Assembly: GCA_014190575.1 (NCBI GenBank)
Contig: BJGQ01000003.1
Location: forward strand, 62,001 to 126,000
Direction: 5' to 3'
DNA: 64,000 nucleotides
From: Bacteroidota bacterium
GTDB taxonomy: Bacteria > Bacteroidota > Bacteroidia > Chitinophagales > UBA10324
The position numbers were made by a program, and so were the translations under genes. Positions 9,922 to 17,388 of this stretch are shown piece by piece. The first letter of the stretch is position 1; each line of letters opens with the position of its first letter. The notes under the pieces were generated by a model. The model saw only the letters and a program-made list of their open reading frames with translations. It made no database searches and had not been told where the DNA came from.

Positions 9922-11145
9922 TCAAGAATCAGAAATAATTTTTCGTTCCTGATTTTTACTCAGTAAGCTAAAACCTATTGCAACAAGTATGCTGAGGACA
10001 ATAAAAAAAATAAACATACTATCAAATCCATACTTGCCGGCTATACCGAGCCCAAGAGATGGTGCGGCAATATTGGCAAGGCCATAAGAAATTGAATACA
10101 ATGCTGCATACTGGCCTTGTCGCTCTTTTCGCGGTCGGGATATTGCATAATTGAACATGAATGGCATAGCAAATATTTCTGACATGGTTATAAAAAGCGT
10201 ATAAATAATCGCCATCAACATCATGCCTTCGCTTATTCTTAAAATAGCAAATGAAAAGGGCAAGCAAAAAACTCCAGTTATTATGAAAGGAAATATTTTT
10301 TTCTTTTTCTCTAACATGGTTATTAATGGCATTTCAATAATTACAACCAACAAGCCGTTCAAGGCGAGCAACAACCCTATGGTATCTTCATTGTATTTGC
10401 AAATGCGATTGAAATATTGCGGCATGCTTGCAAACAATTGAAAGAAACAAATTCCATACAGTGCAACCAATAAAATAAAAAACAGGTATCTGAAATCACG
10501 ATAAGCTGAAGTTCTACTATCAGCAAGCACTTCATTTTTATGCCGGTTTAGTTCTGTTTTTTTTCTAGGTAAATACAGATACAACATTATTGCCGCAGCA
10601 AAACTTGTGCAGGCATCAATTACAAACAACCATTTGTAACCAAGATACAATGCAACGAATCCTCCAACTGCTGGTCCAACTGAAAATCCCAAATTGACTG
10701 CTAATCTCACTAACGAAACAGAGCGTGTTCGGTCACTTGCGTTTGTATAATCGGCAATCGAAGCAGAGTTCGCTGGACGAAACATATCTGCACTCATTGC
10801 ATAAAAAAATATTACTAATGCGATAGCAAACAATGAAGTAGCTACTAAAAGAAGTAATAATATTAATCCACTCAGTAGTAAGGAGAAAACCATTATGTCA
10901 AAATGATTTCTACGGTCAGTTAACCATCCACCGAAATAACTGCCGAGCACACTTCCCATTCCATAAAAGCTCAACACGAATCCTGCATCAACAATTGTAT
11001 AATGTAATTCGTTGGTCAGATACAATGAAGTGAATAATAAAACCATTGAACCACTACGGTTGATGAACATTGAGATGGCGAGTATCCAAATATTTCGCTG
11101 GAGGTTAGAGAATGCTTCTTTATAAAGGGAAAATATAAATTTCAC
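9922..11145 (-). CDS. MFS transporter
   Basis: A 407-residue major facilitator with about 12 membrane segments. The loop 2-3 signature is GSYFGGWLTDRRNHFD (about 68-83), close to the MFS consensus GxxxDRxGRR, and a second RP-rich loop (ISRPRKERQGQYAAL) lies in the C-terminal half. The family includes drug and metabolite exporters, and the substrate cannot be told. The start is GTG at 11145, as no Met occurs before residue 26 and the frame would otherwise lose the first membrane segment. Confidence 0.8.
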   Translation of the reverse strand: MKFIFSLYKEAFSNLQRNIWILAISMFINRSGSMVLLFTSLYLTNELHYTIVDAGFVLSFYGMGSVLGSYFGGWLTDRRNHFDIMVFSLLLSGLILLLLLVATSLFAIALVIFFYAMSADMFRPANSASIADYTNASDRTRSVSLVRLAVNLGFSVGPAVGGFVALYLGYKWLFVIDACTSFAAAIMLYLYLPRKKTELNRHKNEVLADSRTSAYRDFRYLFFILLVALYGICFFQLFASMPQYFNRICKYNEDTIGLLLALNGLLVVIIEMPLITMLEKKKKIFPFIITGVFCLPFSFAILRISEGMMLMAIIYTLFITMSEIFAMPFMFNYAISRPRKERQGQYAALYSISYGLANIAAPSLGLGIAGKYGFDSMFIFFIVLSILVAIGFSLLSKNQERKIISDS

Positions 11146-11310: not shown

Positions 11311-13063
11311 TTATTTCATCTTTAGGCTATAGAACATCAGTGTATCCGTTGAACCTCTTTGATTTTTCAACTCTGCTTTTCCTTTTATTTCAAATTGAAA
11401 AATAGATGAATCAATTAATTCGGTGCACGGAAATGAAGCATTAAGAATAATTAAGGAATGGAGTAGTTTATCGTTTGGGATTTTTCCAATTAAAAATCTG
11501 GAAAACTCTTTGTTATTTTCTGTAATCCATAGCCCAGCAGGTAATTTAAAATTGCTCAGGTAACACAATCCAATGTAATTCCTTTGTGGTATAAAATAAT
11601 TGTAAGTATCGAGTTTGTTTTCGTTTATATAAGTATTGAATGAATTATAGGAAGAGGATAATTCTTTATTTACAAAAAGCACATCTCCGGATTTAGTTTT
11701 CAATTTAATAGATGACGAAAGCAAGTTTTTCTGCCTGTATGGATAAGCAATAACGCAATGATATGTCATCAGCACATTTGCACTTATCAAAATTAGAAAT
11801 AAATAATTTTTGAAATCCGTCATTAAATCATTTAGCAGAATTAAAAGGAAAACAAAAATGAAACCTGAATAAAATATTATTTGAACTGACGATGGCGCAG
11901 AACTGCCAAAAAATCCAGCATAAGCAGAAAATGGAAAAAGAAATAACAGATAATTTTTTCGCTTTGTAAAAATATTTTTATTTGAAAAGAAAAGAAAAAT
12001 TGAAACTAAAAAAAATTACAATAATGTAGTTCCGATGATAAACATCTGAGTCAATGTTTTTATAAAATTGCAAATATGCCAGTGAGCAGAAGAATAAGAA
12101 AAGGCAGCTGAATTTTATTAATTTATGATTCGTTTTTATTAATGAAAAAAGTAAAATTACAGGTATAAGAAATTGTAATGAACAAAATTCTGAAATGAAA
12201 TTATGAGCATCGTCAAAGAGGTAATATGCAAAACCATGAGAATAATAAATGTTTGAAACTGAAGAAATTTCATTTATTATCTTTAAATAATGACCAAACT
12301 CAGAAAATGAATTGAAGCAATATTCAATTGCAAAAGCAACCGCAACAATTGAAGTAGAAAGAATAGTAATAAATATGAGTTTTCTATTTATAAAATATTT
12401 ATAAAATCCGGATAGTAACAGAACATAAATTAGTGTAATTAAAAGAGCAAATGAGGTAGTCATTTTGTTTACTAAAAGCAGTGTCCAAAAAAAGAAGAGA
12501 AAAAAGCAATTCAATATCCATTTGACATTAATATTTCTGATTGAAATTGTTGAAAACATTGATAAGAAAAAGTAAAGTACAAGTGTAATCAGCAAAGGAT
12601 TTAACGAATTGTAAGAAGGAGATAAAGGACCAAAGCAAAATGAAAGCAAGCAAAAACTCAGAAGTAATAAAAAGTCATTCAATCCGAATGATAAACTACT
12701 CAAATCAAAAATCTTTATAAATTGATTTGTTGTTACGAATAAAAAAATTGCAGATATAATGACTAAAAGAAGTCTGATAAATCTTAATGAAATAATTTTT
12801 GGTGAAATGAAAATAAAAAAAACATTAAGAACCCGATTAAAATGTGTCCATATAGTTTGATCGTTTTCTGGATGAGTGAAATTAGTTAGGTAAAAAGATT
12901 AATCTGTTAAGTCAAACCCTTTATTGAGTGACCATATAATTATTCCTGTTTGAACTGCAAGAAAAAAAAATATAAAAATTACAGGAATAACAGTTCTCGA
13001 AGAGAATATATTTTTGTAATATTTTATTTTTCTGGTCGCCCAAAAATCTTTTATCAATTGCAA
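11311..13063 (-). pseudogene. Disrupted polytopic membrane protein (GT-C / PMT-like)
   Basis: One gene of about 583 codons can be rebuilt from three pieces. The first 54 codons, from a TTG at 13063-13061, give a membrane segment and GFDLTD, then hit TAA at 12899-12901. The same frame continues SFYLTNFTHPEND and runs on through several membrane segments. That piece ends at 11978. A +1 frameshift, best explained by the eight-T run at 12008-12015, restores the reading frame (SNKNIFTKRKNYLLFLFPF) that joins smoothly to the final piece ending at 11311. GFDLTD*SFYL matches the DLTDEGFYL motif of GT-C-type membrane glycosyltransferases, with GAA changed to TAA. It could also be an intact gene with two sequencing errors. 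Confidence 0.75.
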
Positions 13064-14436: not shown

Positions 14437-15969
14437 TTATTGAACACCAATTAATTCTCCGGTTGCAGCTATCATAATTTCTTCTTGTGTTACATCTGAT
14501 GAAAACGCTCCGGTAATTTTTCCATCACTCATTACCACAATTCGATTACTCATTCCAATTACTTCGGGTAAATCGCTTGACACCATAATGATTGCCAATC
14601 CCTGCTGCAACAGTTGATTCATGAGTTCATATATTTCAGCACGCGCACCTACATCAATTCCTCGTGTTGGTTCATCAAGCAACAAAAGTTTCGGATTCAC
14701 CAACAAACATTTTCCGATAACTACTTTTTGTTGATTTCCCCCTGAAAGCTGTTGCACTTCTGTTTCGCTTGAATTTGTTTTGACGGAAAGTTGCTGAATC
14801 ATTTCCAAAGTGCGCTTCATTTCTTTTCCGCCTGAAAGAATTCCACCACTCGAAATATTTTTCATGGTTGAAAGATTCAGATTGAAGCGAATGTTTTGCG
14901 GAAGAATTAATCCCAATCGTTTGCGGTCTTCACTCACCAATGCAATTCCTTTGGCAATGGCTTCGGCTGGCGAATTGAATTTTACTTTTTCGTTATTGAA
15001 TAAAATTTCTCCTTCCTGTTTTCCTTTCAATGCACCGATAATTCCCATCAGCAATTCAGTTCTCCCGCTTCCCATTAATCCTGCAATTCCTAGAATTTCT
15101 CCTGCATGAACTTCAATATTTAATGAATCAATTTTCTTTTTTCCAGTTGAATCGAAGAGCGAATAATTTATTAATGTTAAAATTGGTGCACCATCGCCCA
15201 GCTCGGTTTTTAACCGAGTTGCAGATTTTGGATAGAGTTCTGTGATTTCTCTTCCCACCATCAATTTAATTAATTCATTTTCAGAAATATCATGCACAGA
15301 CCGGGTAGCAACAAATTTTCCATCCCTCAAAACTGTTACACGATTGCAAAGCGATTTTATTTCTTTCAATCGGTGACTGATATAAATAACTGTTACACAT
15401 GACAATTGAAGATGTCGAAGCAACCCAAATAATTTTTCAGTTTCCGTTTCGGTTAAAGCAGTGGTGGGTTCATCCAGAATTAACAGTCGCGCCTTTTTAT
15501 TCAATGCTTTCGCAATCTCTATTAATTGTTGTTCGCCAATTCCCAATTCACTCACTTCGGTTTCCGGAGAAATACTTAGGCCAACCTGCTCTAATAATTT
15601 TTTTGATGTAGAATGAATCTGATGTTGTTGAATAATTCCAAAGTGCGAAGGTTCATTGCCGAGAAAAATATTTTCAGCCACACTCATTGTTTTCACCAAC
15701 GAAAGTTCCTGATGGATCACTGCTACTCCAGTTGCCTCTGCTTCGTGAATATTTTTGAAATGAATTTCATTTCCATCTATAAAAAAACTTCCCTCATAAT
15801 TTCCACTGGAATAAACTCCACTCAAAATTTTTATCAGCGTTGATTTTCCTGCACCATTCTCTCCACATACTGCATGAATTTCTCCTTGCTCCAAACTGAA
15901 AGAAATTTCTTTAAGTGCATAATCACCTCCGAATTGTTTGCTGATATTTTTTATTTCCAGAAAACTCAT
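14437..15969 (-). CDS. xylG: Xylose-type ABC transporter ATP-binding protein XylG
   Basis: A 510-residue protein with two fused ABC domains, typical of sugar importers of the CUT2 class. The first domain has Walker A GENGAGKST (36-44) and Walker B LLILDEPTTAL. Its signature is the degenerate LGIGEQQ. The second has the unusual Walker A GLMGSGRTE, a full signature LSGGNQQK and Walker B LLLLDEPTRGIDVGA. Asymmetric domains of this sort are normal in the family. Its ATG overlaps the xylF stop (ATGA at 15966-15969), indicating translational coupling. Confidence 0.92.
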   Translation of the reverse strand: MSFLEIKNISKQFGGDYALKEISFSLEQGEIHAVCGENGAGKSTLIKILSGVYSSGNYEGSFFIDGNEIHFKNIHEAEATGVAVIHQELSLVKTMSVAENIFLGNEPSHFGIIQQHQIHSTSKKLLEQVGLSISPETEVSELGIGEQQLIEIAKALNKKARLLILDEPTTALTETETEKLFGLLRHLQLSCVTVIYISHRLKEIKSLCNRVTVLRDGKFVATRSVHDISENELIKLMVGREITELYPKSATRLKTELGDGAPILTLINYSLFDSTGKKKIDSLNIEVHAGEILGIAGLMGSGRTELLMGIIGALKGKQEGEILFNNEKVKFNSPAEAIAKGIALVSEDRKRLGLILPQNIRFNLNLSTMKNISSGGILSGGKEMKRTLEMIQQLSVKTNSSETEVQQLSGGNQQKVVIGKCLLVNPKLLLLDEPTRGIDVGARAEIYELMNQLLQQGLAIIMVSSDLPEVIGMSNRIVVMSDGKITGAFSSDVTQEEIMIAATGELIGVQ

Positions 15970-16973
15970 TTGTTATAAATTTCTTTTTCAGAATGATAAC
16001 CATCCTTCACAACTGTTTCCATCATATTGGTTTTGTCAACCACAATTGGGTCAATCAGAATACTTGGAATATCTTTTTTTCCATTCGAAACAATTTTCAC
16101 AGCACCTGTCACCTCTTCATTTCTGAGAACTTGCAATGCCGCAACAGCCGCAGCTTCTGCCATTAGTTGCAACGGCTTGTAAACTGTCATTGATTGAGTA
16201 CCAGCAATCACTCGCTGACATGCCGAGAGTTCAGCATCTTGTCCGCTCACTAAAACTTTTCCCTCCAGTTGCTGTTCGTGCAATGCTTGAATGGCTCCGC
16301 TCGCCGTTCCATCGTTGCTCGCAACAATTGCAGTAATATTTTTTTCTTTCGTGAGTGCATTCTCTACATGCTTCATGGCTTCCATCGGTTGCCAGTCTGC
16401 TGCCCATTGGTTGGCAATAATTTTTATAAAACCCGAATCAATATATGGCTGCAAAATTTTCATTTGCCCTTCGTGATAAAGCAGCGCATTGTTATCATTT
16501 GGTGAACCACCGATGAGAATATAATTCCCGCGTGGTGCTTTCTTTACTAAGTATTCTGCCTGCATTTCGCCGATGCGCTCGTTATCGAACGACACATACA
16601 AATCCAAATCGCAATCGCGAATCATACGGTCGTATGCAATCACGCGCACTCCGTGTTTATGTGCATTGTCTACTATGGTTGAAGCAATTTTTCCATTGTG
16701 AGGAACTACAACTAACACATCAACACTTTGTGTAATCATATTTTCAGCCTGCGCTATCTGCACTTCATCGTTGCCGTTACATGCCTGTACTAATACTTCA
16801 CAACCAAGTGATTCGGCTTTCGCCACAAAAAAATCGCGGTCGTGCTGCCACCGTTCTTCTTTTAATGTTTCCATTAAAAGTCCGATTCGTGGCTTTGATT
16901 TTTTATGTTGAGAATTGCAAGAAAAAAAGACGGAGAGACAGAAAATGCAGAGGAGGAAATGATTTTTACTCAT
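15966..16973 (-). CDS. xylF: Xylose-type periplasmic sugar-binding lipoprotein XylF
   Basis: A 335-residue periplasmic binding protein. The segment KPRIGLLMETLKEERWQHDRD and the later NGNDEVQIAQAENMI and RVIAYDRMI follow XylF closely. A signal peptide ends in a lipobox (VFFSC), so it is a lipoprotein rather than a freely soluble one. The ATG at 16973 (MSKNHFLLC) is chosen. The open frame continues upstream to 17267, but that stretch crosses the tRNA-Lys gene on the other strand and has no signal-peptide character. It is first in the xylFGH operon; no xylose isomerase or kinase gene is in the window. Confidence 0.9.
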   Translation of the reverse strand: MSKNHFLLCIFCLSVFFSCNSQHKKSKPRIGLLMETLKEERWQHDRDFFVAKAESLGCEVLVQACNGNDEVQIAQAENMITQSVDVLVVVPHNGKIASTIVDNAHKHGVRVIAYDRMIRDCDLDLYVSFDNERIGEMQAEYLVKKAPRGNYILIGGSPNDNNALLYHEGQMKILQPYIDSGFIKIIANQWAADWQPMEAMKHVENALTKEKNITAIVASNDGTASGAIQALHEQQLEGKVLVSGQDAELSACQRVIAGTQSMTVYKPLQLMAEAAAVAALQVLRNEEVTGAVKIVSNGKKDIPSILIDPIVVDKTNMMETVVKDGYHSEKEIYNK

Positions 16974-17030
16974 TGATTTTGAAAGGTGAAAAATAACATT
17001 CCAGCAAAATGAAACCGATTTGAATATTGA

Positions 17031-17061
17031 TTTGCAAAAGTGACTTGCGAAATTATCTTTG
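17031..17061 (+). promoter_or_regulatory. Bacteroidota promoter of tRNA-Lys
   Basis: TTTG at 17031-17034 and TATCTTTG at 17054-17061 are separated by exactly 19 bases, matching the Bacteroidota primary sigma consensus TTTG-N19-TAnnTTTG. The mature tRNA begins 26 bases after the -7 element. Confidence 0.85.
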
Positions 17062-17087
17062 CGCTCCGCTTTGAAAAAAGCATTGAT

Positions 17088-17160
17088 GATTCCGTAGCTC
17101 AGCTGGTAGAGCATAACACTTTTAATGTTGGGGTCTTGGGTTCGAATCCCAACGGGATCA
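17088..17160 (+). tRNA. tRNA-Lys (anticodon TTT)
   Basis: A full cloverleaf of 73 bases. The acceptor arms are GATTCCG and CGGGATC, the D arm is GCTC...GAGC, and the anticodon loop CTTTTAA is held by TAACA/TGTTG. The T arm is TTGGG-TTCGAAT-CCCAA. The discriminator is A at 17160 and the CCA end is not encoded. It is flanked by a consensus promoter and a 20-bp terminator hairpin, so it is a single-gene transcription unit. Confidence 0.95.
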
Positions 17161-17165
17161 CAGTC

Positions 17166-17206
17166 AAAACTACAAAAGCCTTGCACTGCAAGGCTTTTGT
17201 AGTTTT
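17166..17206 (+). terminator. 20-bp perfect hairpin after tRNA-Lys
   Basis: AAAACTACAAAAGCCTTGCA (17166-17185) is followed after one base by its exact reverse complement (17187-17206), which ends in TTTT. It starts 6 bases after the tRNA and would fold as a strong terminator for it. Its symmetry also lets it act on the minus strand. Confidence 0.85.
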
Positions 17207-17229
17207 GGTGAACTGTTACACAAAGATTA

Positions 17230-17388
17230 TCACTGTATAACCAGCAGTGCATTCTTCCCTTCAGCATATAATAGATTTTGTAATACTTCTAACCGGATCT
17301 TCGGCTTTAGCAATTCTTTTTTTGTTTCTTCCTTAATGAATTATTCGGGTGCACGATCGCTAATTTCTTTCAGCTTAATTTTTTTCAT
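17230..17388 (-). pseudogene. Decayed N-terminal stub resembling polyphosphate kinase 2
   Basis: The minus-strand frame from ATG 17388 reads MKKIKLKEISDRAPE, a TAA at 17341-17343, and then in the same frame FIKEETKKELLK, RLEVLQNLLYAEGKNALLVI, and TGA at 17230-17232. PPK2-family kinases start with just such a helical region leading to LYAEGKxxLLVxLQGMDASGKDG. Here the match ends one or two residues before the Walker A loop and the catalytic domain is missing. The stub abuts the tRNA-Lys terminator. It begins 15 bases after the PAP2 gene stop. The family call is from recognition of the pattern and was not searched. Confidence 0.65.

Follow-up and report, generated by a model that had tools for sequence, protein, structure and literature searches.

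A broken GT-C-fold membrane glycosyltransferase gene, very probably gained and then pseudogenised, in a member of the Chitinophagales

We found a broken gene on the minus strand of a 64,000-nucleotide window (the whole stretch of DNA that was analysed, from contig BJGQ01000003.1 of a Bacteroidota bacterium), which is very probably an AT-rich GT-C-fold membrane glycosyltransferase gene that was gained in the lineage of the window species and then pseudogenised. A pseudogene is by itself ordinary, and the value of this one lies in the coherent family with a GT-C fold to which it points. Members stand next to surface-glycan genes in Bacteroidota and in further phyla, and because Pfam and NCBIfam have no model for the family, they go unnamed in genome annotation. 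The locus can also be seen as an example of a gene acquired at a labile site and then decaying.

Three consecutive open frames read as one interrupted gene

Frame analysis of the minus strand gives three end-to-end open frames of 54, 306 and 234 codons. The locus, its match to a profile of the family (described below) and its two syntenic neighbours are laid out as follows.

9922 to 11145, minus strand: intact MFS transporter gene, downstream syntenic neighbour, boundary of the putatively gained segment
11311 to 11313, minus strand: stop codon of the 3' piece
11314 to 12015, minus strand: 3' piece, 234 open codons, final membrane helices plus the soluble domain at the C-terminus; profile 342-543, 27.1 bits
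11981 to 12015, minus strand: interval containing a net +1 frame change, including the T8 run at 12008-12015
11981 to 12898, minus strand: middle piece, 306 open codons, membrane-domain homology; profile 39-330, 42.0 bits
12899 to 12901, minus strand: in-frame TAA, at a family position that is usually the Glu of a D-E-G motif
12902 to 13063, minus strand: 5' piece of 54 codons, with transmembrane helix 1 and the beginning of the first outer loop (WSLNKGFDLTD), its last residue being the invariant Asp; profile 6-36, 26.5 bits
13153 to 14430, minus strand: intact sugar-type ABC permease gene, upstream syntenic neighbour, boundary of the putatively gained segment

The frames, their coordinates, the TAA and the T8 run are exactly as given in the initial annotation. 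The middle piece is in phase with the 5' piece and the 3' piece is in another phase; since the middle and 3' frames, taken between stops, overlap in 11981-12015 and nowhere else, the frame change is confined to that interval. The T8 run (A8 on the plus strand) is the longest run within it, but T5 and T4 runs share the same 35 bases, so T8 is a likely but unproven site: the frameshift that had been proposed stands for the interval containing T8, though not for T8 exactly. When the same 1753 bases were randomised 1000 times with a first-order Markov model, the longest open frame averaged 82 codons and never exceeded 176, against 306 in the actual sequence.

A homologue search against related genomes, made with the 349 window residues that result from reading through the TAA, recovered distant homologues within the same order, whose open frames are about 580-670 codons long. 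Further ones came from profile-searching 396 genomes of this order. With a family profile built from 24 homologues, the window copy being left out, the three pieces match independently, in order and at the adjacent segments listed above. None of 600 shuffled pieces scored above 9.8 bits, and the three pieces joined give 116.9 bits. Because the pieces match adjacent profile segments in order, they are, on this profile evidence, one gene interrupted at two places and not three genes. About 30 relatives of roughly 590 amino acids run uninterrupted over both joints, which bears out the earlier reading of a single polytopic GT-C-like gene broken twice and speaks against unrelated pieces. Both the TAA and the frame change lie inside the homologous span, and compared with the intact homologues each removes most of the protein.

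That the pieces are separate functional proteins, or are joined by programmed readthrough and frameshifting, is hardly credible. The C-terminal piece does have an ATG and 170 codons, but the 54-codon 5' piece contains no ATG (its possible starts are TTG at codons 1 and 3 only), the middle piece has none before codon 114, and no such split was seen among the relatives examined.

Relative to its family, the window copy keeps seven invariant residues (W44, G49, D54, S150, Y151, G387, P509) and has lost the near-invariant Gly56 and Gly506. Its agreement with the 21 conserved columns, at 14, is below that of every other row among 25 (the others range from 0.73 to 1.0), which fits either relaxed constraint or merely a divergent member. 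The initial annotation had placed the interrupted motif one GAA-to-TAA change from an intact one. The residue directly after the TAA, however, is Ser (TCT) in the window copy and Gly in 23 of the 24 family rows, so that DLTD*SFYL differs from DLTDEGFYL also by a Ser for a near-invariant Gly, and the single-substitution account is too simple.

A GT-C membrane fold outside the curated sequence families

Sequence models did not place the gene in any named family. The GT-C/PMT profile comparison that had been suggested as a check gave no useful Pfam or NCBIfam match for the window pieces (E up to 5) and no family match for ten intact homologues (E up to 0.1), the models for PMT (GT39), ArnT (GT83) and STT3 (GT66) included in both cases. 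A search of PDB sequences with the family profile returned chance hits only.

Structure prediction was more informative. The intact relative L043 (589 amino acids), folded from an alignment of 26 relatives, gave a model with a mean pLDDT of 91.2, whose 45 best PDB neighbours are all GT-C enzymes, with Z from 12.3 down to 8.2, the next being an unrelated chain at Z 7.4. These matches comprise OST/STT3, Pmt4, Pmt1-Pmt2, ArnT, EmbB/EmbC, AftA/AftB, ALG9/ALG12, PglB, AglB, DPY19 and PimE. Window residues 1-349, with the TAA read through, were modelled at pLDDT 74 and yielded 19 GT-C rows with Z between 12.9 and 8.6, the following row falling to 6.3; the alignment for this model included homologues, and the model is therefore not independent of them. 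As modelled, then, both the family and the window copy have the GT-C membrane fold.

The likeness to ArnT (5ezm, 5f15), Pmt4 and Pmt1-Pmt2 (9e61, 6p25) and STT3/PglB/AglB (6s7o, 5ogl, 3wak) lies in a membrane fold of many helices that aligns over 350-430 residues, in a first outer loop that is acidic and comes directly behind helix 1, and in a soluble domain at the C-terminus, whereas sequence identity in the structural alignments is 7-11% and the window copy is broken. In GT-C enzymes the catalytic acid sits in the first outer loop, where the family has, directly after helix 1, an invariant Asp (D54 in the window copy, D41 in L043) that by analogy would be catalytic; from the modelled fold, the sugar donor of these proteins would be lipid-phosphate-linked. 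We hypothesise that the intact enzyme would lie in the inner membrane and use acidic residues of the first outer loop to transfer a sugar, presumably carried on polyprenyl phosphate, to an extracytoplasmic acceptor.

A family broad across Bacteroidota and other phyla

The family carries the motif W-[SG]-x-[ND]-K-G-F-[DE]-x-[TS]-D-E-G, as in L043 from a Chitinophaga MAG and L042 from Hymenobacter metallicola, and we found no published description of it in the open-licence literature. The window copy shares with this unnamed Bacteroidota family its length, collinear homology along the whole chain and the seven invariant residues; identity, on the other hand, is only 15-24%, and the family copies are intact and often stand in glycan clusters or tandem pairs. 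Among the genes next to the relatives are those for GT1-, GT2- and GT4-type transferases, UDP-GlcNAc 2-epimerase, DegT aminotransferase, ABC exporters and sulfotransferases. We think it reasonably likely that the window copy represents, in degenerate form, a GT-C family that is broad across Bacteroidota, Verrucomicrobiota and Melainabacteria, lies outside the curated sequence families and is often found in tandem.

Two diverged family copies on one strand are often paired in tandem (L057, L054, L055, L056, L045, from several MAGs), which suggests paired or sequential action. One relative in another genus (L025:1336-3300, G071:C3) has a single in-frame TAA near its C-terminus, matching the profile at 8-527 and then, in the same frame, at 537-585, with an intact tandem copy adjoining. 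A further candidate for a broken copy (G572/L119) was ruled out, as it has no match to the family profile.

Sequence error, phase variation or true decay

The initial annotation had left the cause between recent decay and errors in the sequence. If the gene were intact in the organism, both lesions would be assembly or sequencing errors, or a mixture of strains in the consensus, and it is true that one of them lies at a homopolymer and that the assembly is a draft of 91 contigs. We estimated the error rate on this one contig by aligning to it the proteins of five congeners, counting coverage at 55% identity or more. The 72,159 coding bases checked in this way contain no frameshift and no internal stop (two stops fell at the extreme edge of alignments, outside genes), and the reading frame is maintained through the 23 A/T runs (8 or 9 bases long) that they include. 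At the upper bound of 3 errors per 72 kb, the probability of two errors in 1753 bases is about 0.0025, so two lesions here are not expected from error. Moreover, a substitution that makes a TAA differs from a homopolymer error, the codon after the TAA is also off the family consensus, and an ATG start is missing. Sequence error is thus unlikely as the cause of the lesions, and we give an intact gene in the organism only a slim chance.

Homopolymer slippage is a known mode of switching in glycosyltransferase genes, and the frame change does fall within a T-rich stretch containing T8. Phase variation by slippage at T8 is nevertheless very unlikely, as the TAA blocks the product whatever the phase of the T-tract, A/T runs of at least 8 bases abound on the contig (52 in 145 kb), and the broken gene itself contains another T8 and a T9, both in frame.

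The preferred reading is true decay, in which function would have been lost through the nonsense codon just past the invariant Asp of the catalytic loop together with the net +1 frame change in the T-rich stretch, and the window gene is probably now without function. The other half of the annotated cause, that the decay is recent, is unsupported. Searches of the class (395 genomes), the order (396) and the GTDB 220 contigs (these with one motif pattern) gave no orthologue closer than about 23-28% identity, and for this reason no date can be put on the lesions.

A probable gain at a labile site in the lineage of the window species

The MFS transporter and ABC permease genes (the latter recognised from its own sequence and from the ABC ATPase and binding-protein genes beside it) lie side by side in each of the five congeners, where they are 81-87% and 77-91% identical to those of the window. 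None of the five has the GT-C-like gene, whether at the syntenic site or elsewhere in the genome, and no homologue was found in any sampled genome of the same genus or family, so the comparison with relatives gave no near intact orthologue. At the syntenic site, four congeners hold a DUF922 gene and the fifth 131 bases. The broken gene has a G+C of 0.27, the lowest on its contig, where 107 genes have a mean of 0.368 with a standard deviation of 0.031.

The simplest account is a gain by the lineage of the window species from an unsampled donor, followed by decay: an AT-rich copy would have been inserted between the MFS gene and the sugar ABC permease gene, and we infer the direction of the event to be this one gain and not five losses. 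In the tree, the window copy sits at the end of a long branch and groups, with weak support (81/49), with two tandem copies from Flavobacteriales, and no donor is named on account of this placement. There is a small chance that the gene is instead an old one of the genus that all five congeners have lost, the window species keeping the last, dying copy. The site is labile, since the congeners hold DUF922 or nothing there, which would suit such a history, but it requires several losses, four congeners share a different gene at the site without a trace of the GT-C-like gene, and the base composition of the broken gene is alien to the contig.

The DUF922 gene of the congeners (L072:1755-2315, L073, L074, L075) encodes a secreted protein of about 190 amino acids with a conserved HEQLHFD motif. 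It has no copy elsewhere in the genome of the window species, and no trace of it was found in the flanks of the broken gene, where alignment scores stay within those of shuffles.

Two further observations concern gene starts. The MFS gene begins at window position 11145 with GTG, whereas ATG stands at the corresponding position in at least four congeners. The open reading frame at 15966-17267, for a sugar-binding protein, overlaps a tRNA-Lys gene on the opposite strand (17088-17161), and its true start is probably downstream.
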